64,000 nucleotides of DNA, taken from NCBI RefSeq assembly GCF_006716785.1, contig NZ_VFPQ01000001.1, positions 5,146,001-5,210,000 of the forward strand, in the 5' to 3' direction. The position numbers and the translations under genes were made by a program. This document shows positions 2,873-33,486 of the stretch, one piece after another. The notes under the pieces were generated by a model. It was not told where the DNA came from. It worked only from the letters and a program-made list of their open reading frames with translations, and searched no databases. This stretch comes from Thermopolyspora flexuosa (lineage in GTDB: Bacteria; Actinomycetota; Actinomycetes; Streptosporangiales; Streptosporangiaceae). Numbering within the stretch: position 1 is the stretch's first letter; each line of letters starts with the position of its first letter.

Positions 2873-3424
2873 TCAGCGGCGGACCGGGCAGGCGGGCGGG
2901 ATCGCGGCGACGATCTCGGCGGGCAGGGGCGGCAGGCCGACCGCGGCGCGGCGCTCGTTGAGCCGGTCCACGTCCGCCACCGGCCAGGGCCGGTCGCCGT
3001 GCTCGGTGTGCACCTGCTGCGTGCCGTACCGCTGGAGCCTGCCCGCCGCCACGAGCACCCGGTCGCACAGGTACGCGTACAGGCGGGGGTTCGCCTCGCC
3101 GTGGGCGACGGCCGCGGCCATCAGCTCGGCGCACCGGGCCTGGAAGGGGCGGTCGTGGTCGGCGTGCAGGGCGAGCAGCCACAGTTCCTCCGCGGCGCGG
3201 TCGCCGATGCGGGACCGGGGCGGCCAGGCGTCGCGCAGCACGGTGCGGAGCCAGGCGGTGTTGTCGCGGTCGATCGCGTGCATGCGGGCGAGCAGGCGGG
3301 CACGCCGTACCGGGTCGCCGGGGCCGGCCCGCCGTACCGCGGCGCGGATCGCCTGGTCGGCCGCGGCCCGGCGGCCGAGCTCGGCGGCGAGGTCGAGGTC
3401 GACGCCGAGGTCCATGCCGGTCAC
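2873..3424 (-). CDS. DUF6624 domain protein at the 3' end of the graspetide operon
   Basis: This 183-aa protein is charged and helix-rich, with no signal peptide or membrane segment. The C-terminal stretch around QRYGTQQVHTEHGDRPWPV matches my memory of the DUF6624 signature; no catalytic function is established for that family. GTG 3424 overlaps the stop of the ATP-grasp gene (GTGA) and is preceded by GGGAGGGG at good distance. ATG 3415 would be too far from that site. The tight coupling to the maturase gene suggests a job in the same peptide pathway (modification, carrier or immunity), but that is inference only. Confidence 0.75.
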   Translation of the reverse strand: MTGMDLGVDLDLAAELGRRAAADQAIRAAVRRAGPGDPVRRARLLARMHAIDRDNTAWLRTVLRDAWPPRSRIGDRAAEELWLLALHADHDRPFQARCAELMAAAVAHGEANPRLYAYLCDRVLVAAGRLQRYGTQQVHTEHGDRPWPVADVDRLNERRAAVGLPPLPAEIVAAIPPACPVRR

Positions 3425-4410
3425 GGCCCCTCCCCGGCGAGCAGGTTCGCGATCGCCGCGCCGATCGGCAGCCCCGCCTCCTCCTCCAGCCACAGCCACT
3501 GGCCGTTGCCGTTGACCTCGAGGAAGACGTGGTCGCCGGCGGGGGTGACGATCAGGTCGACGGCGCCGAACGCGAGGCCGAGGTCGGCCACGACCTCGAC
3601 GCAGGCGCGCGCCACCGGCTCGGGCAGCTCGCACGCGGACCAGTCGAGGCCCGGCGCGTCGAACCGCCAGTCGACGGCGGTGTGCGCGGACGCCTGGCTG
3701 TCCACGGCCGCGGCGAACACCTCCCGGCCCACGACGACCGCGCGGATCTCGTGGTCTTTCTTCACGTACTCCTGGAACAGGCACGGGGTGACGCGGACCC
3801 GGTCGAGGTGGGCGGCGTGCTCGTCGGTGATCTCCGTGGTCATGACCACCTGCGGCACCCTGGCGCCCTTGGCGACCGGGCGGCCGCTCAGGCTCTTGTA
3901 GACGACCCGGTCCCGTTCCCGCAGGAAGGCGCGGGCCGCGTCCGGGTCGTTCGTCACGAGCGTGTCGGGCACGCGCAGCCCTCTGCGGCGGGCGACGGTG
4001 AGCTGCAGCGGCTTGTACTGGGCGGTGGTGAGCTTCTCCGGGTGGGAGACCCACCGCGCGGGGAGGCTGCGCAGGAGCCCGCCGATGCCGCGGCGGGTCT
4101 CGGCGAGGGCGAACTCGCGTTCCAGGCCCTTCAGCGCGTCGGGCAGGCCGAACGCGCGGGGGCGCCGGTAGTAGACGCCGCGGACCTCGGCGAGGTCGAC
4201 GACGGTCTCGCCGTGGCGGAGCGCCGCGCGCCACGGCCGGTCGCCGGTGAGCGTCGCGGTGAGCGTGGCGGCCATCGGGTAGTCGGCGAGGTCGAACCGG
4301 GCCACGCTCGTGCCGCGGGCGCGCAGCTCGCCGATGACGCGGTCGGCGTGCACGTCGTCCGGCTGGGTGAGGACGAGGACCCGCGGCCTCGCGAGGTTGA
4401 TCTCGGGCAT
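3421..4410 (-). CDS. ATP-grasp ribosomal-peptide maturase (graspetide ligase)
   Basis: This 329-aa protein has the size and build of the MdnC/MdnB/TgmB ATP-grasp ligases that join side-chain carboxylates to Ser/Thr hydroxyls or Lys amines of a precursor peptide. An N-terminal pre-ATP-grasp domain (VLVLTQPDDVHADRV) carries the YYRRP motif typical of these maturases. The ATP-grasp core follows, with VVYKSLSGRPV (nucleotide-binding strand), CLFQEYVKKDHEIRAVVV, and the Mg-binding FLEVNGNGQW near the C-terminus. It lies 3 bp after the GNAT gene and is followed by the overlapping DUF6624 gene. There is only one ligase, so a single linkage chemistry is likely. Confidence 0.88.
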   Translation of the reverse strand: MPEINLARPRVLVLTQPDDVHADRVIGELRARGTSVARFDLADYPMAATLTATLTGDRPWRAALRHGETVVDLAEVRGVYYRRPRAFGLPDALKGLEREFALAETRRGIGGLLRSLPARWVSHPEKLTTAQYKPLQLTVARRRGLRVPDTLVTNDPDAARAFLRERDRVVYKSLSGRPVAKGARVPQVVMTTEITDEHAAHLDRVRVTPCLFQEYVKKDHEIRAVVVGREVFAAAVDSQASAHTAVDWRFDAPGLDWSACELPEPVARACVEVVADLGLAFGAVDLIVTPAGDHVFLEVNGNGQWLWLEEEAGLPIGAAIANLLAGEGP

Positions 4411-4413
4411 CGG

Positions 4414-5040
4414 CTACCCCTCCGTCCACGGCTCGAACCGCAGGGCGCGGGCGATCCGGCCGGCCTTCTTCAGCCACTCGTCCCGGTAGACGGCGATGGT
4501 GAACCGGTCGCGGTAGCGGCCGTCGAGGAAGATGTGCTCGCGCAGCCGCGCCTCGACCCGGAAGTACCGGTCGATCCCCGACCGGTACTGGCGCAGGGCG
4601 TTGTCGTAGGAGTCGGCGTAGATCTTGCGCATGGCGGTGGTGAGGAAGAGCTGGGTGAGGAACAGCGCGGCCGCCTCGATGCCGAGCCCGGTCGACCGGG
4701 TGCCGGGGTCGGCGACCACGCTCAGCCACGCGTACCCGTCGGCGGCGTTCCGGTTGTACAGGGACAGCCAGACCACCGGCGTGCCGTCGGGGCGGGTGGC
4801 GACGAGCTGGCGGGTGGGGTCGAGGCGCATGCGCTCCTCGAAGATGCCGAGGCTCGGCGCCGGCTCCCGGTAGCCGAGCAGCCCGCGTACCTCGGGGTGG
4901 TTCTCCCACTGGTAGAGCAGCGGGTGGTCGGCCGGGTCGACGGCCCGCAGGCGCAGGTGGCGCGAGCGGGTCGGGGCCGGTCTGCCCTCGGCGGTCCGCG
5001 CCAGGTCGGCGACGTCCCAGTCGGTCAGGTTCTGCTGCAC
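4414..5040 (-). CDS. GNAT-family N-acetyltransferase
   Basis: This 208-aa protein has a GNAT fold: N-terminal beta strand (HLRLRAVDPADHPLLYQW), central strands around PVVWLSLYNRNAADGYAWLSV, and an acetyl-CoA loop DPGTRSTGLGIEAAALFL, which is a degenerate R/Q-x-x-G-x-G/A. It sits between the ABC exporter and the ATP-grasp ligase. That arrangement parallels the MdnD acetyltransferase of microviridin clusters, which caps the N-terminus of the mature peptide, so the same role is inferred here. It could instead acetylate a self-resistance target. Confidence 0.8.
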   Translation of the reverse strand: MQQNLTDWDVADLARTAEGRPAPTRSRHLRLRAVDPADHPLLYQWENHPEVRGLLGYREPAPSLGIFEERMRLDPTRQLVATRPDGTPVVWLSLYNRNAADGYAWLSVVADPGTRSTGLGIEAAALFLTQLFLTTAMRKIYADSYDNALRQYRSGIDRYFRVEARLREHIFLDGRYRDRFTIAVYRDEWLKKAGRIARALRFEPWTEG

Positions 5041-5059: not shown

Positions 5060-6973
5060 TCACTCGTCGGTCCGGTCGGGCCCGGCCTGCTGGGCGTAGA
5101 GCCGCGAGTAGACCGGGCCGCCGTTCACCAGGTCGCGGTGCCGCCCCCGCTCCACGATCGCCCCGTCGGCGAGGACGACGATGTGGTCGGCGTCCACGAC
5201 GGTGGAGAGCCGGTGCGCGATCACCAGGCAGGTGCGGTCGGCGCTGAGCCGCTGGAGGGCGGCGTTCACCAGCCGCTCGTTCTCCGCGTCCATCTGCGAG
5301 GTGGCCTCGTCGAGCACGAGGATGCGCGGATCCTGCAGGATCGCCCGGGCGATCGCCATGCGCTGCCGCTCGCCGCCGGAGAGCCGGTGACCCCTCGCGC
5401 CCACCCGGGTGGCGAGGCGGTCGGGGAGGGCGTGCACCGTGTCGTGCAGGTTCGCCGCCTCCAGCGCGGCCCACATCTCCTCCTCGGTGGCGTCGAGCCT
5501 GCCGTACCGGAGGTTGGCGGCGATGGTGTCGTTGAACAGGAACGGGTCCTGCGGCACGCAGCCGACCAGGGCGCGCAGGCGGTCGTCGTCGAGGTCGGCG
5601 GCATCGGTCCCCCGGATCAGGACCCTGCCGGAGGCCGGCGGGTAGATCGCGGTCGCCAGGTAGCCGAGGGTAGTCTTGCCGGAGCCGCTCGGGCCGACCA
5701 CCGCGACCTTCTCCCCGGCCCCGACCCGCAGGTTCACGCCGCGCAGCGCCCACCGCTCCGGCCGGTACGGCGCGGCGTCGCGGCCCGCGGGGCCGGTGGG
5801 GCCGGCGCGGTCCGGCCGGGCGCGGTCGTAGCTGAACCACACGTCCCGCAGCTCCAGGTCGGGGACCTCGCCGCCGGCGGCGTGGTCCTCGGCCGGGACG
5901 GCCGTCTCGGCGGGCGGCCGCTCCCGCACCTGGAGCGCGGGGCGGCTCACCGGGACGTCGAGGAAGGCGTAGATGCGGGTGAGCGAGGCGCCGGCGGCGG
6001 CGAGCCGGGTCCGGGACTCGGCCATCGACGACAGCGGCAGGTACAGGCTCGCCAGTGCGGCGGCGAACCCGGCGACCGTGCCGATGCTCGTCGCGCCGGT
6101 GCTCACCAGCCACATGCCCACCCCGACCGTGGCGACCGCGACGAGCGCGCCCATGACGGTCACCGCGAACCTGACCAGCGCCTCGATCCGGGTCCGCCGG
6201 ATCCCGAGCCGCCGCACCCGGTCGGTGAGCCGCAGGAAGCGTTCCTCCTCGTGGCCCTGGCGCCGGAACAGGCGGATCTGCAGCGCGCCGGACACCCCGG
6301 TGGTGTCCGACACCACGCCGATCAGCTCCTGCAGGCCCGCGAGCTGGGTGGCCGCGGTCCGCGTGGCGTGGCCGCGGGCGATCCGCACCAGGAGCACGGC
6401 GAGCGGCACCGAGACCAGGGCGACGAGGGTGAGCCGCCAGTCGAGCACGAGCACGGCCGCGACCACGACGAGCAGGTTCGCCGCGCCGGCGAGCAGCGCG
6501 GGGATGTCCATCGCCATCGCCACCTGGACGTTGGAGACGTCGTTGGCGAGCAGGGTGAGGAACGCCCCCGGCTCGCTGGACGGGTAGAAGCCGAACGGCA
6601 CCCGCAGCGCGTGCCGGTACAGGGTGGTGCGCATCCGGCTGGCGACCGTCTCCCCGAGGGCCGCCGTGGTCACCATGCGCAGGGCGAGCACGCCGGCCTG
6701 GGCGACCGCGACGGCGAGGACGACCAGCAGCGGGGGCCACAGCGCCGCCGTCCCGGTCCCCGCGACGACGCCGTCGACGAGGGCCCGGACCACGAACGGG
6801 GTGACCAGCACCCCGAGCGAGCCGGTCACCGACAGCAGGACGACGCCGATCAGCCGGGCCGCCTGCCCGTGCAGCAGCTCACCGGTACGGCGGGCGAGCG
6901 GGCTGCCGGTGAGCCATGCGAACACGGCGGTGAACACGCCCGCCACCCGGTCGCCCCTGCCGCTTCGCGCCAT
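5060..6973 (-). CDS. ABC exporter with fused membrane and ATPase domains
   Basis: This is a 637-aa type IV ABC half-transporter. The N-terminal six-helix membrane domain spans about residues 25-320. The ATPase domain has Walker A GPSGSGKTT, signature LSGGERQ, Walker B ILVLDEATS and H-loop IAHRLS. An Ala/Pro-rich insertion lies at the domain junction and inside the first ATPase strands. ATG 6973 (MARSGRGDR) is chosen because GGGGAG lies directly upstream; a further upstream frame exists but is not gene-like. It is the second gene after the candidate precursor and probably exports the finished peptide. No C39 protease domain is fused, so leader removal must be done elsewhere. Confidence 0.9.
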   Translation of the reverse strand: MARSGRGDRVAGVFTAVFAWLTGSPLARRTGELLHGQAARLIGVVLLSVTGSLGVLVTPFVVRALVDGVVAGTGTAALWPPLLVVLAVAVAQAGVLALRMVTTAALGETVASRMRTTLYRHALRVPFGFYPSSEPGAFLTLLANDVSNVQVAMAMDIPALLAGAANLLVVVAAVLVLDWRLTLVALVSVPLAVLLVRIARGHATRTAATQLAGLQELIGVVSDTTGVSGALQIRLFRRQGHEEERFLRLTDRVRRLGIRRTRIEALVRFAVTVMGALVAVATVGVGMWLVSTGATSIGTVAGFAAALASLYLPLSSMAESRTRLAAAGASLTRIYAFLDVPVSRPALQVRERPPAETAVPAEDHAAGGEVPDLELRDVWFSYDRARPDRAGPTGPAGRDAAPYRPERWALRGVNLRVGAGEKVAVVGPSGSGKTTLGYLATAIYPPASGRVLIRGTDAADLDDDRLRALVGCVPQDPFLFNDTIAANLRYGRLDATEEEMWAALEAANLHDTVHALPDRLATRVGARGHRLSGGERQRMAIARAILQDPRILVLDEATSQMDAENERLVNAALQRLSADRTCLVIAHRLSTVVDADHIVVLADGAIVERGRHRDLVNGGPVYSRLYAQQAGPDRTDE

Positions 6974-6999
6974 TCTCCCCGCCCTTTCGATCGCCGGAA

Positions 7000-7034
7000 C
7001 CGGTGCCCGGGAGAAGTGTTTCCCCGGGCACCGG
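7000..7034 (-). terminator. 12-bp perfect hairpin between precursor and exporter genes
   Basis: CCGGTGCCCGGG (7000-7011) and its exact complement (7023-7034) enclose an 11-nt loop. On the minus strand the hairpin lies 153 nt after the precursor stop and 27 nt before the exporter start. No U-run follows. It could be a leaky attenuator or a 3'-protecting stem that keeps precursor mRNA in excess over the downstream genes, a common arrangement in RiPP operons. Confidence 0.6.
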
Positions 7035-7186
7035 CACCACCTCGGAACCACTCGGAACCGGCCGGATTCATCCGGCGGAGCAGCTCACGCACGGTGAATC
7101 CGGACCGCCCTTTTCGTGTCGTGAACGGGCCTTTTCTCCCCCAGGGTTCCCCGGTCAGGAGAACTGCGCGAGGGGCACGGTGAAAT

Positions 7187-7477
7187 TCAGTCGTTGATGC
7201 ACTGGAAACCGTTGTCGATCCAGACGTAACCGGTGGAGTTGTACCGGGTCGCGTACACGCGGAGGTACCGCTCCTCGTCGGCGATCACGGCGTCGCCGGA
7301 ATCGCCGACCGGGGTGAAGGAGAGACCGGCCGCGAAAGGCAGGACCGCGGCGTCCGCGGTCTTCTCGAAATCCGCGAAATGGTCCTCCGGAACCAGTGTG
7401 GGCTCGTACTCGGCGAGCCCGCTCATCTCCAGCGCGCCCTGGTCGAGGTCGACCTCGGCAGGGGTGTACGTCGGCAC
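7187..7477 (-). CDS. Candidate graspetide precursor peptide
   Basis: This 96-aa acidic protein is the first gene of the minus-strand cluster. GTG 7477 has AAGGAG 8 nt upstream. Residues 1-60 look like a leader (no signal peptide, no membrane segment) with a Pro-Phe pair at 47-48, reminiscent of the PF leader motif that maturases bind. The C-terminal third is rich in Tyr and contains possible crosslink partners T77, S81 and T82 (hydroxyl donors) and D88 and the terminal D96 (acid acceptors), plus C93. It does not resemble the better known TgmA-type or microviridin precursors at sequence level. The precursor role rests on position, size and composition. Confidence 0.62.
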   Translation of the reverse strand: MPTYTPAEVDLDQGALEMSGLAEYEPTLVPEDHFADFEKTADAAVLPFAAGLSFTPVGDSGDAVIADEERYLRVYATRYNSTGYVWIDNGFQCIND

Positions 7478-7537
7478 TTCCTGACTCCTTTCGGGAAAGA
7501 TGCCGGAAAGGGTTCCCTGGGGAGAGCGTCACCCGGC

Positions 7538-7581
7538 GGGGTCCACCGCCGGTTCACCGGGGGAACACCGGCGATACACCG
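7538..7581 (-). promoter_or_regulatory. Four 11-bp-spaced direct repeats: candidate SARP operator
   Basis: On the minus strand the pentamer CGGTG occurs at 7581-7577, 7570-7566, 7559-7555 and 7548-7544, exactly 11 bp apart, each followed by a 6-nt spacer. SARP activators bind short direct repeats with an 11-bp period just upstream of the -10 element. The array lies between the SARP gene and the precursor gene start (7477), on the precursor side. I see no convincing -10 hexamer after it. Confidence 0.65.
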
Positions 7582-7638
7582 CGCCGTCGCCGCCCGGCAC
7601 CGCGGTTCCGCGCGGCCGCGGCCGGCCCGGCGCGGCGG

Positions 7639-8415
7639 TCAGCGGGCGGCGCCGCGGGCGTCGGCGAAGGTCGGCGGCCGGGCGGCGAGGATCCGCTGGT
7701 GGAGCTCGGCGAGGCGGGGCCCCGGCTCCACGCCGAGCTGCTCGGTCAGCACGTCCCGGCACTGGAGGTAGGCGGCGAGCGCGTCCCCGCGGCGGCCGTC
7801 CTCGTAGAGCGCGATCATGAGGTCCGCCCACAGCCGCTCGTGCAGCGGGTAGATGGCCAGCGCGACCCGCAGCCAGGCGACCGCCTCGCCGTACTCGCCC
7901 AGCCTCCGGTAGACGGCGGCGAGCCGGTGCAGCGTCTCGATCAGCCGGTCGTCGAGCAGGGTCGCGGCGTTCCGGAGCGCCTCGGACTCGCCGACGAGGT
8001 CCTCCAGGGCGGGCCCGCGCCACAGCTCGGCCGCCGCGCGCAGGTGCCGGGCCGCGGCCGCGTGGTCGCCCCGGGCGAGCGCCGCCGCGCCCGCGGCGCG
8101 GTGCTCCTCGAAGCGCACGACGTCCAGGCTGTCCTGCGGCGCGTCCAGGCGGTAGCCGCTCGGGACCGTGCGGATGGACGCCCCGGTGGCGCGCAGCTCG
8201 TTCCGGAGCATCGACACATACGTTTTCAGATTTCCGTGGGCGGAGGCCGGCGGCCGCTCTCCCCACAGCGCGCTGGAAAGTCGTTCGGTCGAGACCGCCC
8301 GGCCGCGATTCAGCAGCATATAGGCGAGAAGTTGCCGCAGCTTCAGCCGCCGCAGCTCGACGCGACCGCCGTCCGCCCTGCGCACCTCCAGTGGACCCAA
8401 TAATAAAAACCTCAC
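7639..8415 (-). CDS. SARP-family transcriptional activator
   Basis: This 258-aa protein has the SARP layout: an OmpR-like winged helix (residues about 1-95; VRFLLLGPLEV, LKLRQLLAYMLLNRG, LKTYVSMLRNEL) and a bacterial transcriptional activation domain of helical repeats (about 100-250; DVVRFEEH, RLIETLHRLA, ERLWADLMIALYE). GTG 8415 is preferred because GGAGG lies 8 nt upstream and the protein then starts MRFLLLGPLEV as in the family. The gene is upstream of and codirectional with the graspetide cluster and is its likely pathway-specific activator. It lacks the ATPase/TPR extension of large AfsR types. Confidence 0.9.
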   Translation of the reverse strand: MRFLLLGPLEVRRADGGRVELRRLKLRQLLAYMLLNRGRAVSTERLSSALWGERPPASAHGNLKTYVSMLRNELRATGASIRTVPSGYRLDAPQDSLDVVRFEEHRAAGAAALARGDHAAAARHLRAAAELWRGPALEDLVGESEALRNAATLLDDRLIETLHRLAAVYRRLGEYGEAVAWLRVALAIYPLHERLWADLMIALYEDGRRGDALAAYLQCRDVLTEQLGVEPGPRLAELHQRILAARPPTFADARGAAR

Positions 8416-8475
8416 CTGGCCATCCTCCCCCGGGGGCAATTTTCGGTGACCCACTAGGTGGCCTGAAGCGATCAG

Positions 8476-8505
8476 ATTCAACTCGCGGTGTGACGACGGC
8501 GTCAA
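8476..8505 (-). promoter_or_regulatory. Candidate promoter of the SARP gene
   Basis: On the minus strand TTGACG (8505-8500) is followed after 18 nt by TTGAAT (8481-8476), giving a -35 with good match and a -10 of 4/6. Transcription would start near 8470, leaving a leader of about 55 nt before GTG 8415. The rest of the 8416-8766 gap shows no gene. Confidence 0.35.
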
Positions 8506-8766: not shown

Positions 8767-9258
8767 TCAGGAGCCGGTCGCCAGCACCGCGGCGGTCATG
8801 ACGAGCGCGGCGCCGATCGCCATGAAGGCGAGGCCGAGGCCGATGACCAGGGTGGTCAGGTGCCAGGCCTGGTAGGCGCTCATCAGCGAGGCGCGCAGGG
8901 TCTGGCCCATGAACGCGGTCTGGCGGAGGGCGGTGAGTTCCTCGTCGCCGCGGCGCTCGGCGAGCTGGGCGCTGATCTCGGAGTAGGTGCGGCCGCCGGT
9001 GGCCTTGCGCACGTTCGCGCCGATCATGTCGGCGAACGCCTTCGCCTGGTCGCCGGTGGCCACCGCGGCACCGGCGTGGCGGGCCAGGTGCGGGGGCAGC
9101 TTCTCCGCCTCGGGGAAGACGATCTTCTGGTCGGCGAGCTCGCGCCGGATCTCGGCGCGCCCGCTGCGGCCACGGACGACCATCACCGGGCCGGCCGTGA
9201 GCATCGCCGCGCCGACCACGGTGAGCAGCGCTACGGCAAGCCCTCGGATATCGGTCAT
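8767..9258 (-). CDS. Small integral membrane protein of unknown function
   Basis: This 163-aa protein has one hydrophobic segment at residues 6-29, a soluble middle of about 100 residues (rich in Ala, Glu and Arg, likely helical), and a second hydrophobic segment at about 133-160. I recognise no domain. The two terminal membrane helices with an internal or external helical hairpin give no functional clue. It is followed downstream by the SARP/graspetide region and preceded by the nitronate monooxygenase-like gene, both on the same strand. The spacing (about 100 bp each side) does not argue for an operon. Confidence 0.7.
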   Translation of the reverse strand: MTDIRGLAVALLTVVGAAMLTAGPVMVVRGRSGRAEIRRELADQKIVFPEAEKLPPHLARHAGAAVATGDQAKAFADMIGANVRKATGGRTYSEISAQLAERRGDEELTALRQTAFMGQTLRASLMSAYQAWHLTTLVIGLGLAFMAIGAALVMTAAVLATGS

Positions 9259-9362
9259 TCATGCCCTCCGGTGGAGAAGTGGCCGGTCGGCGCCCTCCCC
9301 GGCCCGGTGCACGGGCGGGTACGGCGTGCCGGGCGGTCCGGAGCGGCCCCCGTGGCCCGCCG

Positions 9363-10883
9363 TCATATGGGGGACGCGGGTTGCGGGGCCAGGGCGTCGG
9401 ACCGGCGCACGGTCGGGTTCGGTACGGCGGGCACGTCCGGCGTGCCGCCGCGCAACAGGTAGGCGACCACGTCGGCGGCCCCGTAGTCGGGCGCGGGCAG
9501 GTGGGCGAGGAAGCCGAGGTCCTGGCCGAGGGTGACCAGGGGCGGCTCGGCGTAGCCGTCCTGCCGGGTCTGGCCGAGTCCCGCGGTCGCGGTGAGCGCG
9601 TTGCACAGGCAGTGGCGTCCGGCGGTCTCCTCGGCGCTGCCGCCCTTGCGCACGAACAGGTCGACGGGCTCGGCGGGGCAGCGGTAGCCGACGTCGCCGT
9701 CCGGCTTCAGGTAGGGGGTGCGCAGGTAGCCGAGGTCGCACAGCCGGGGGCGCGCGGCGTACACCCGCTCCTCCGACAGCGTGCCCGCCAGCCGGGCCAC
9801 CTTGAACGGGAAGCCGGTCGGCGAGGAGGACGGGTCGTTGCGCACGTGCAGCGCGCCGCGCCCGGCGAGCCGGAGCAGCCGCCGCCGGATGTGCTCGCCG
9901 AGCCCGGACTCGCGGCACAGCGCGAACGCGGTGCCCACCTGGATGCCCGCGGCCCCGGCGGCGAGCGCCTCGGCGAGCCCCTGCGGGGTGGCGTAGCCGC
10001 CGGCGAGCCAGAACGGCAGGCCGAGCGCGGCCACCTTCGCCACGTCGATGCGGTCGCGCGGGCCGTACACCGGCTCGCCGGTCTCGCTCAGCCGCATCCG
10101 GCCCCGTGGCGGGGCGCTGTGGCCCCCCGCCACGGGGGTTTCCAGGACGAAGCCGTCCGGCCGGGTCGCCGGGTTGCGGCTGAGGTGGACGGCGAGCACC
10201 GCCGCCGAGACGATCGCGAGAAAACGGGGACGGAGCGGCGGCGGTGCCCCTGGTACGGCGAGGCGCGATGGGTCGAAGGTGATCACGTGCGGGGCGTCGG
10301 CCCCGGCGACGGTGATCGACAGCCTGGCGGGGCGTCCGGCGGCGAGGGCGTCGAGCAGGGCCGGGATCTCGCTCGGGATGCCGGCGCCCATGAGCACGTA
10401 GTCGACGCCGGCGAGCATCGCCCCGTAGACCGAGGCCGGGGTGGCGAGCTGGATCTTCTCCAGGTAGTTGACGCCGATCGGGCCGTCGTGGCCCTGTTTG
10501 GCGAGCCAGACCTCGACGAAGTTGCCCGCGGCCTGCAGCTCGTCGCGCCACGGGTTCGGGCGCAGGCCGAGGCGGGGCACGGGCCGGAACGGGCGTCCTT
10601 CGGGGATGCCGCCGGGCACGTAGTAGCGCTCGAGGATGCGCTCGGCGGCCTGCCTGCGCGGGTAGGCGGCGAGGGCGCGCCGTACGTGGCCGCCCGGGTC
10701 GCCGAGCTGGAGGCGGCGGGTCATCAGCGTGTCGAGGGCCACCCCGGACACGACCCCGAGCTGGCCGGTGGCGGCGACGGCGCGGGCGAGCCGCCAGTTC
10801 GACACGCCGACCCCCATGCCGCCCTGGATGATCCGGGGGAGGGCGTGGCGCCCCGTCTCGCCGAGTTGCTGAGCAGCGGTCAC
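9363..10883 (-). CDS. Nitronate monooxygenase-like flavoprotein (NPD family)
   Basis: This 506-aa protein of the 2-nitropropane-dioxygenase/nitronate monooxygenase superfamily is a FMN-binding TIM barrel. Visible signatures are RIIQGGMGVGVSNWRLARAV at the N-terminus, the central GGHSAPPRG segment (equivalent to the catalytic-His GGHxG motif), PFWLAGGYATPQGLAEALAAGAAGIQVGTAF for FMN phosphate binding, and a Cys-containing C-terminal tail. It is longer than class I or II enzymes (about 330-370 aa) and matches a long actinobacterial subfamily of unknown substrate. GTG 10883, with GGAAAGGG upstream, is chosen; a TTG at 10937 would add 18 residues. Upstream DevR-like boxes suggest hypoxic or redox induction. 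Confidence 0.85.
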   Translation of the reverse strand: MTAAQQLGETGRHALPRIIQGGMGVGVSNWRLARAVAATGQLGVVSGVALDTLMTRRLQLGDPGGHVRRALAAYPRRQAAERILERYYVPGGIPEGRPFRPVPRLGLRPNPWRDELQAAGNFVEVWLAKQGHDGPIGVNYLEKIQLATPASVYGAMLAGVDYVLMGAGIPSEIPALLDALAAGRPARLSITVAGADAPHVITFDPSRLAVPGAPPPLRPRFLAIVSAAVLAVHLSRNPATRPDGFVLETPVAGGHSAPPRGRMRLSETGEPVYGPRDRIDVAKVAALGLPFWLAGGYATPQGLAEALAAGAAGIQVGTAFALCRESGLGEHIRRRLLRLAGRGALHVRNDPSSSPTGFPFKVARLAGTLSEERVYAARPRLCDLGYLRTPYLKPDGDVGYRCPAEPVDLFVRKGGSAEETAGRHCLCNALTATAGLGQTRQDGYAEPPLVTLGQDLGFLAHLPAPDYGAADVVAYLLRGGTPDVPAVPNPTVRRSDALAPQPASPI

Positions 10884-32688: not shown

Positions 32689-33486
32689 ATGCGCATCTGG
32701 CACCAGAGCTTCACCGTGCTCGACGACGTGCCGCACTACCGGGACGCGCTGCGCCGGCATCTGACCGCGGCCGCCCGGCCCGGCACCGAGGTGGAGCTGC
32801 ACGGCATGGCGCCCGGCACCTACCCGAGCTCCTATCCGGGGGTGCACATCGGCCACCTCTACCTGACGAACCTCCACCGCGAGCAGTTCGTGCGGGCCGC
32901 GCTCGCCGCCGAGGAGCAGGGCTACGACGCGTTCTTCATCGCCACCCTCCCGGACACCGGGTTCGAGGAGATCCGCACCCTGGTGGACATCCCGGTGGTG
33001 GCGTTCGGCAACGCCTCGGTGGCGTACGCGGCGACGCTCGGCACCTGCGTCGGCATCGTCAACTTCATCGCCGCGCTCGAGCCGCAGATCCGCCGCAACA
33101 TGGCCGCATACGGCCTCGGCTCGCTCGTCGGCCCGATCGTGCAGGTCGAGGCCGAGTTCACCGACGTGATGGCCGCCTACGACAACCCCGGGCCGCTGGT
33201 CGACGCGTTCCGCCGGGCCGCGCGGAAGGCGATCGACGCCGGGGCGAACGTGATCGTCCCCGGGGAGGGGCCGCTCAACGTGTTCCTCGCCGACCAGGGG
33301 ATCTCCCGGGTGGACGAGGTCCCGGTGATCGACTCGCTCGCCACCGGGCTCGCGCTCGCCGAGACCCGGGCCGAGTTCCACCGGCGCAGCGGGCTGCGCC
33401 CGGCCCGCACCGGCATGTACTTCAGCAAGCCCGACATGGCGATGGTGCGGGCGGCGCGCAAGTTCTACTTCGGGGGTGACCGGTGA
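32689..33486 (+). CDS. Asp/Glu racemase-fold protein lacking both catalytic cysteines
   Basis: This 265-aa protein has the two-domain fold of the Asp/Glu/hydantoin racemase and maleate isomerase superfamily (GYDAFFIATLPDTGFEEIR; LVDAFRRAARKAIDAGANVIVPGEGPLN). In family members the two domains each give a Cys at the end of these strands (pattern A-C-F-x-D and G-C). Here those positions read Thr and Glu. The enzyme therefore cannot use the usual two-Cys racemase chemistry and may be a lyase, decarboxylase or isomerase of another kind. ATG 32689 has AGGA 8 nt upstream. It couples by GTGA to flavoprotein 3. Confidence 0.78.
   Translation: MRIWHQSFTVLDDVPHYRDALRRHLTAAARPGTEVELHGMAPGTYPSSYPGVHIGHLYLTNLHREQFVRAALAAEEQGYDAFFIATLPDTGFEEIRTLVDIPVVAFGNASVAYAATLGTCVGIVNFIAALEPQIRRNMAAYGLGSLVGPIVQVEAEFTDVMAAYDNPGPLVDAFRRAARKAIDAGANVIVPGEGPLNVFLADQGISRVDEVPVIDSLATGLALAETRAEFHRRSGLRPARTGMYFSKPDMAMVRAARKFYFGGDR

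Follow-up and report, generated by a model that had tools for sequence, protein, structure and literature searches.

What governs the peptide cluster on the minus strand of the analysed DNA (i.e. a stretch of 64,000 nucleotides from Thermopolyspora flexuosa, hereafter the window) is the question raised by a short repeat array at 7538-7581. A first-pass annotation had described four exact 11-bp direct repeats at this place and had read them as the operator of a SARP regulator. CGGTG was found on the minus strand at 7577-7581, 7566-7570, 7555-7559 and 7544-7548, confirming the positions, the strand and the invariant period, with a pitch of exactly 11 bp or about one helix turn. Four units and an exact pitch therefore stand, whilst the units themselves are not identical. 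In the form CGGTGnnnCnn (7571-7581, 7560-7570, 7549-7559 and 7538-7548), 6 of 11 columns are invariant (CGGTG plus one C, i.e. CGGTGnnnC) and the others vary, so that the array consists of degenerate units and is no plain tandem repeat. A possible degenerate fifth unit, CGGCGACGGCG, lies in register on the same strand at 7582..7592 and keeps 4/5 CGGTG bases.

The rarity of this arrangement was assessed in the window and in the genome. CGGTG occurs at 531 per 128,000 positions of the window, a rate that predicts 0.00004 in-phase sets of four at 11 bp for the window and 0.003 for the genome. Six matches to CGGTG-N6-CGGTG were present in the window, three of them inside the array, as compared to a mean of 0.83 in shuffled sequences (n = 100), none of which reached six. 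When pitches of 8 to 15 were scanned in the window for four-copy chains of any 5-mer, a pitch of 11 alone gave chains (n = 2), i.e. the CGGTG array and a GCCGC chain at 33070. The genome-wide motif scan proposed with the first reading returned the array as the single match to the exact four-copy pattern in 5.77 Mb, with none for the reversed pattern. A longer form of the array pattern with up to three mismatches matched three times in the genome (twice in the array) and four times in the reversed control, and hence only the exact array is distinctive. One other CGGTG triple exists in the genome (G000:C1:3246613-3246639, within 3246609-3246650; L001, L267), situated 24 bp before an ATG and between genes that by eye appear VWA-like and XdhC-like; 0.8 triples are expected by chance, and it may be a chance occurrence or a second target. 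The RNA fold of the array was unremarkable (z -1.2) and no Rfam match was obtained.

The minus-strand gene order is SARP, array, 96-aa ORF, ABC exporter, GNAT, ATP-grasp ligase and DUF6624. The 96-aa ORF (7187..7477) has a GTG start preceded at 7 nt by AAAGGAG and matched nothing in Pfam or NCBIfam. A homologue in another genome (i.e. G499) fronts an ABC gene and part of a GNAT gene, and comparison of the sequences thus indicates a conserved gene that most likely encodes the precursor of a graspetide, which would presumably undergo modification. The exporter (5060..7051; likelier start ATG at 6973) carries the Pfam domains ABC_membrane and ABC_tran and is followed by a GNAT acetyltransferase (4414..5040; Acetyltransf_3, 1.2e-5, 26.4 bits, cut-off 25.4). 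The ATP-grasp ligase (3421..4410) is of the peptide-maturase kind, i.e. that of MvdC/MvdD, by Pfam (ATPgraspMvdD, 2.8e-14, above the cut-off), and its best NCBIfam subfamily fell just short (TIGR04187, 348.2 bits, slightly below the cut-off of 350). A DUF6624 protein (2991..3424; Pfam 1.2e-11) is the last gene of the presumed operon. We take this ABC-GNAT-ATP-grasp set to resemble microviridin clusters. The putative precursor has a homologue in a like cluster but matched no recognised precursor family; the cluster is therefore labelled graspetide-type and placed in no named group. The gap between precursor and exporter (6975..7186, minus strand) is predicted to form strong RNA hairpins (fold of 7190-6975, -115.8 kcal/mol, z -4.5) with no U-tract terminator called on the minus strand; these hairpins possibly act as an attenuator and might favour the precursor over the enzymes.

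Relatives of the cluster were sought widely. The window precursor matched its own genome alone among 341 family genomes, a genus mate (G329, 78% complete) had no match to the precursor or the ATP-grasp ligase, and a search of plasmids gave no match. G499, which belongs to another taxonomic family, contains a 48% identical precursor homologue before the ABC gene and partial GNAT (L254) and, in a second cluster (L253), an ABC gene, a GNAT (49%) and an ATP-grasp ligase (47%). At about 8900-9170 of L254, the GNAT match next to the homologue of the precursor spans query residues 22-106 only. No ATP-grasp match was found in the 18 kb fetched around L254, and the L253 ligase might serve both clusters. 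Twelve GNAT-match regions fetched in the class search gave an ATP-grasp match in L253 only and a precursor match in L254 only, and a two-row precursor profile run against 233 relatives of G499 found nothing beyond G499 itself. A SARP was present in 1/20 other ATP-grasp loci fetched with flanks. This second ATP-grasp locus with a SARP (L110; 8348-8380 and 8399-10121) has a large SARP, in a 700-aa open frame at whose end TGAGAGCGGnC is repeated three times with an 11-bp pitch; two small ORFs, of which the one starting at 8843 looks precursor-like, and then the ATP-grasp gene lie behind these repeats.

The G499 locus bears on a refutation proposed in advance, i.e. that the repeats would not be conserved in relatives with the same cluster. 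Taken literally, that is the situation in G499, in which neither CGGTG nor an 11-bp array occurs in the 260 bp before the precursor; the SARP, however, is absent there too, with no match across the 18 kb retrieved. The G499 precursor has instead a TTGACA-18-TAACCT promoter whose -10 starts 60 nt before the ATG, and which the standard scan did not call because this -10 matches consensus at 3/6 positions. Array and SARP are thus missing together and a TTGACA promoter takes their place, in what is a single comparison of a precursor with an array to one without.

The SARP gene was confirmed as the next gene upstream of the array and on the same strand (7639..8505, minus strand). Its product, 288 aa long if counted from the earliest start codon available (the true start being uncertain), has the SARP order of an OmpR-type DNA-binding domain followed by a BTAD domain (Pfam Trans_reg_C, 1.6e-9; BTAD, 4.7e-38), and its relatives in the PDB are EmbR and AfsR. 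Between array and precursor, the first NANNNT is GACGCT at 7525..7530 (minus strand), a weak -10-like hexamer; the last unit begins 18 nt before it, and a transcription start near 7518 would follow from its position. No -35 is recognisable; the four best -35/-10 pairs listed for the region have 2/6 TTGACA bases, and the standard scan called no promoter at the array. SARP operators are expected to have direct repeats with a period of 11 or 22 bp, to overlap a poor or missing -35 and to leave about 8 bp between the 3' repeat and the -10. Here there are four units at 11 bp, no good -35 is present and 7 nt separate the last 11-bp unit from GACGCT, a figure for which the -10 is predicted and the counting edge depends on the register chosen for the unit.

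The published AfsR structures, in the portions available, show two protomers side by side on two 11-bp repeats over the -35 and offering sigma region 4 a docking place, i.e. sigma adaptation (PMC10936776). The downstream repeat lies at -29 to -19 in that account (PMC10936776), which gives a repeat-to--10 distance of 17 nt with the -10 set at -12 to -7. The window SARP is identical to AfsR at 5/12 DNA-contact positions (W74, P79, T88, S91 and R94) and differs at the others (S46 to R, Q48 to K, S80 to A, Q81 to S, R87 to K, R92 to M and K95 to N). AfsR R92 reads T, the third base of the AfsR repeat, at which the window array has G; the paired replacements of R92 by M and of T by G fit a changed specificity without proving it.

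Conservation was examined in the nearest relatives of the regulator. In a tree of 80 SARPs, for which the program gave a warning of unsettled bootstrap values, the window protein was sister to ten others from the same taxonomic family (L186-L188, L190-L194, L199 and L201; 45-52% identity) with support of 97/78, slightly below the mark set by the tool, and these ten held together at 100/100. None of the ten had an exact CGGTG array beside its gene, and among the 29 nearest other SARP matches there was one three-copy CGGTG match with a mismatch (L209). Absence of CGGTG at the sisters was considered as a refutation and dropped, since a motif-free scan revealed arrays of different sequence. All ten sisters have 3-4 units of 11 bp between the SARP stop and the next gene, followed by 7 nt and then NANNNT (the -10 anchors being picked by eye in nine and taken from the sequence itself in L192), and every sister shares with the window a spacing of 18 nt from last unit to -10. 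GACGCT itself recurs at the same place in L192 and L193. The sister units are TRTGGCGG-like and have positions 3-5 and 9 (i.e. GTG...C) in common with CGGTGnnnC; geometry and this core are thus kept whilst the array sequence is not. Across 33 small-SARP loci in the motif-free scan, 12 cases had 11 bp as the sole top-ranking pitch behind the gene, namely the window locus (counted twice), 9/10 sisters (L199 being the exception) and L226. The next clade (L189, L195-L198), which the recognition helix of the window SARP resembles, has no such array behind the SARP, and one of its members has an 11-bp array before the SARP (L217). Directly behind the sister SARP and array of L219, at 9314-9979, lies a gene for a protein of about 222 aa, with equivalents in the five other loci fetched wide (L215, L216, L218, L224 and L225); one such protein was scanned and had no Pfam match up to E 1.

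A position matrix was built from the ten sisters with the window left out, six of one genus being given a joint weight of 1.5. This matrix ranked 7581 first among 127,888 window positions (11.7 bits; next best 8.5), placing the array at the top without knowledge of it. The score was reached at 5/2,050,706 positions of 79 other loci, or about 0.3 per window, and by 4/1000 within-unit column permutations and 0/1000 full permutations. With SARP domains encoded next door, an 11-bp pitch, a -10-like hexamer, no good -35 and arrays at ten sisters, the proposal made from the sequence is well supported, and 7538-7581 very probably serves as operator for the SARP of the adjoining upstream gene. Counting against it are the sister units, which have only GTG and one C in common with the array, the changes at R92 and K95, a recognition helix like that of the array-less next clade, and the few control positions and permutations that reach the matrix score.

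CGGTG arrays were also surveyed across the family. Exact four-copy CGGTG-N6 arrays were present at 68 distinct sites in 60/341 genomes, with the reversed control matching several genomes too. Sixty sites, fetched with flanks of about 6 kb on either side wherever the contig was long enough, were divided into 16 non-tandem and 44 near-tandem sites at a mean spacer identity of up to 4.0 of 6, a cut chosen after the table had been seen; the window array scored 2.67 of 6. A SARP lay within 6 kb of 7/16 non-tandem as compared to 1/44 near-tandem sites, that one being weak and partial (P = 0.0002), and of 6/15 non-tandem sites with the window excluded (P = 0.0007). Cuts of 3.0 and 3.5 gave 5/9 versus 3/51. 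Eight further sites without wide flanks (G018, G030, G036, G069, G150, G210, G259 and G337) stand outside these counts, and five of them, with flanks of up to 1.5 kb, had no SARP match.

At five of the seven SARP sites (L116, L121, L123, L127 and the window) the array is located at or just behind the 3' end of a co-directional SARP gene; in L117 it precedes the SARP gene, and in L126 the SARP frame at which it lies runs in the opposite direction. In L116, L121, L123, L126 and L127 the last CGGTG is followed at exactly 12 nt by the start of a NANNNT and this, 6-7 nt later, by an ATG, a spacing that suggests leaderless transcripts. L125, whose contig ends short, has the same layout with no SARP in view. 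The hexamer stands at 10 nt in L117 and 13 nt in the window, and in none of eight other non-SARP sites was it found at 12 or 13. Measured from unit start to -10, the distance is 17 nt in the L116/L121/L123/L126/L127 group and 18 nt in the window. Near position 6000, L116, L121, L123 and L127 have large SARPs with CGGTGA-type arrays before an oxidoreductase-like gene, an arrangement that looks like a recurrent SARP-driven leaderless promoter.

Because large SARPs of the family have CGGTG arrays beside them, the array could be a SARP-type operator read mainly by another regulator of this genome, with the adjacent SARP secondary. Ten BTAD genes are encoded, and one of the proteins (L176) groups with AfsR at 100/100. 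Such an assignment is nevertheless unlikely, as the adjacent SARP is co-directional, the spacing is the 18 nt of its own clade and not the 17 nt seen elsewhere, and no CGGTG array lies closer than about 1.5 kb to the BTAD match in any of the nine other genes. Recognition by some other protein, such as a dimeric repressor on the imperfect dyad CCGGTGAACCGG inside the array, is very improbable: the arms CCGGT and ACCGG are present, but a dyad leaves four in-phase copies unexplained, no other regulator gene adjoins and the arrays of the sisters lack it. A chance array or a functionless tandem repeat in decay, for which the near-tandem majority of family sites and the matches of the reversed control could speak, is hardly credible for units with such unlike spacers, so low an expected number per genome, an ordinary RNA fold and no Rfam match.

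The operator of the adjacent SARP has close counterparts among characterised systems. The afs box in the afsS promoter, bound by AfsR, likewise combines a SARP gene, 11-bp repeats, a poor -35 and a small gene downstream, as far as the available text describes it (PMC10936776), and its 17 nt from repeat to -10 is within 1 bp of the 18 nt in the window. It has two repeats (CGTTYATCGNN) whereas the window has four, i.e. two more upstream, and AfsR is a large SARP whilst the window SARP is small and its presumed target a graspetide-type precursor. NosP, the SARP of the nosiheptide cluster, is described in the excerpted source as activating its cluster, which like that of the window makes a ribosomal peptide, although nosiheptide is a thiopeptide and the window cluster is graspetide-type (PMC10972967). 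The PimR operator is given there as three heptamers with 4-nt spacers (PMC10972967), and thus as 11-bp units like those of the window. PimR, however, is a SARP-LAL regulator of a polyene cluster and its operator is said in the same excerpt not to overlap the -35, unlike the array (PMC10972967). Regulators named beside ATP-grasp genes in the portion available of a further paper are a histidine kinase, a DUF5753-linked protein, an AcrR and an OmpR-type regulator, with SARP unnamed in that portion (PMC8939145). In the literature searched, no paper joined graspetide and SARP, tied a SARP with direct repeats to a RiPP precursor peptide, or linked a graspetide promoter to a transcriptional activator; a SARP-type operator in a graspetide-type cluster is not described there. 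The array is most likely a known kind of switch placed before a graspetide-type cluster.

By this mechanism, SARP protomers would occupy the 11-bp units as neighbours along one face of the DNA, and the last two units, covering the would-be -35 place, would provide an alternative docking point for sigma region 4 by sigma adaptation. Given that docking point, RNA polymerase could use the poor -10 GACGCT to initiate about 41 nt upstream of the precursor gene, and transcription would continue into the ABC, GNAT and ATP-grasp genes. We infer SARP binding, activation, the start site, the operon and its SARP dependence in this way, with the prediction that the cluster is silent without the SARP.

A further and tentative idea, which we consider rather doubtful, is that SARP gene and operator form one portable activator-promoter cassette, that the graspetide-type cluster became inducible by gaining it whole, and that recognition helix and repeats drifted together with the 11-bp/18-nt geometry fixed. 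If so, the sisters would drive the protein of about 222 aa with this cassette and the window lineage a peptide cluster, in contrast to the G499 relative with its sigma-70-like promoter and no SARP. The operator assignment points to the likely switch for a graspetide-type cluster that is itself uncharacterised, so that SARP expression or promoter replacement may offer a handle for obtaining its product. The ten sister arrays and that of the window would also form a set in which co-change of recognition helix and operator can be followed at a held promoter geometry.
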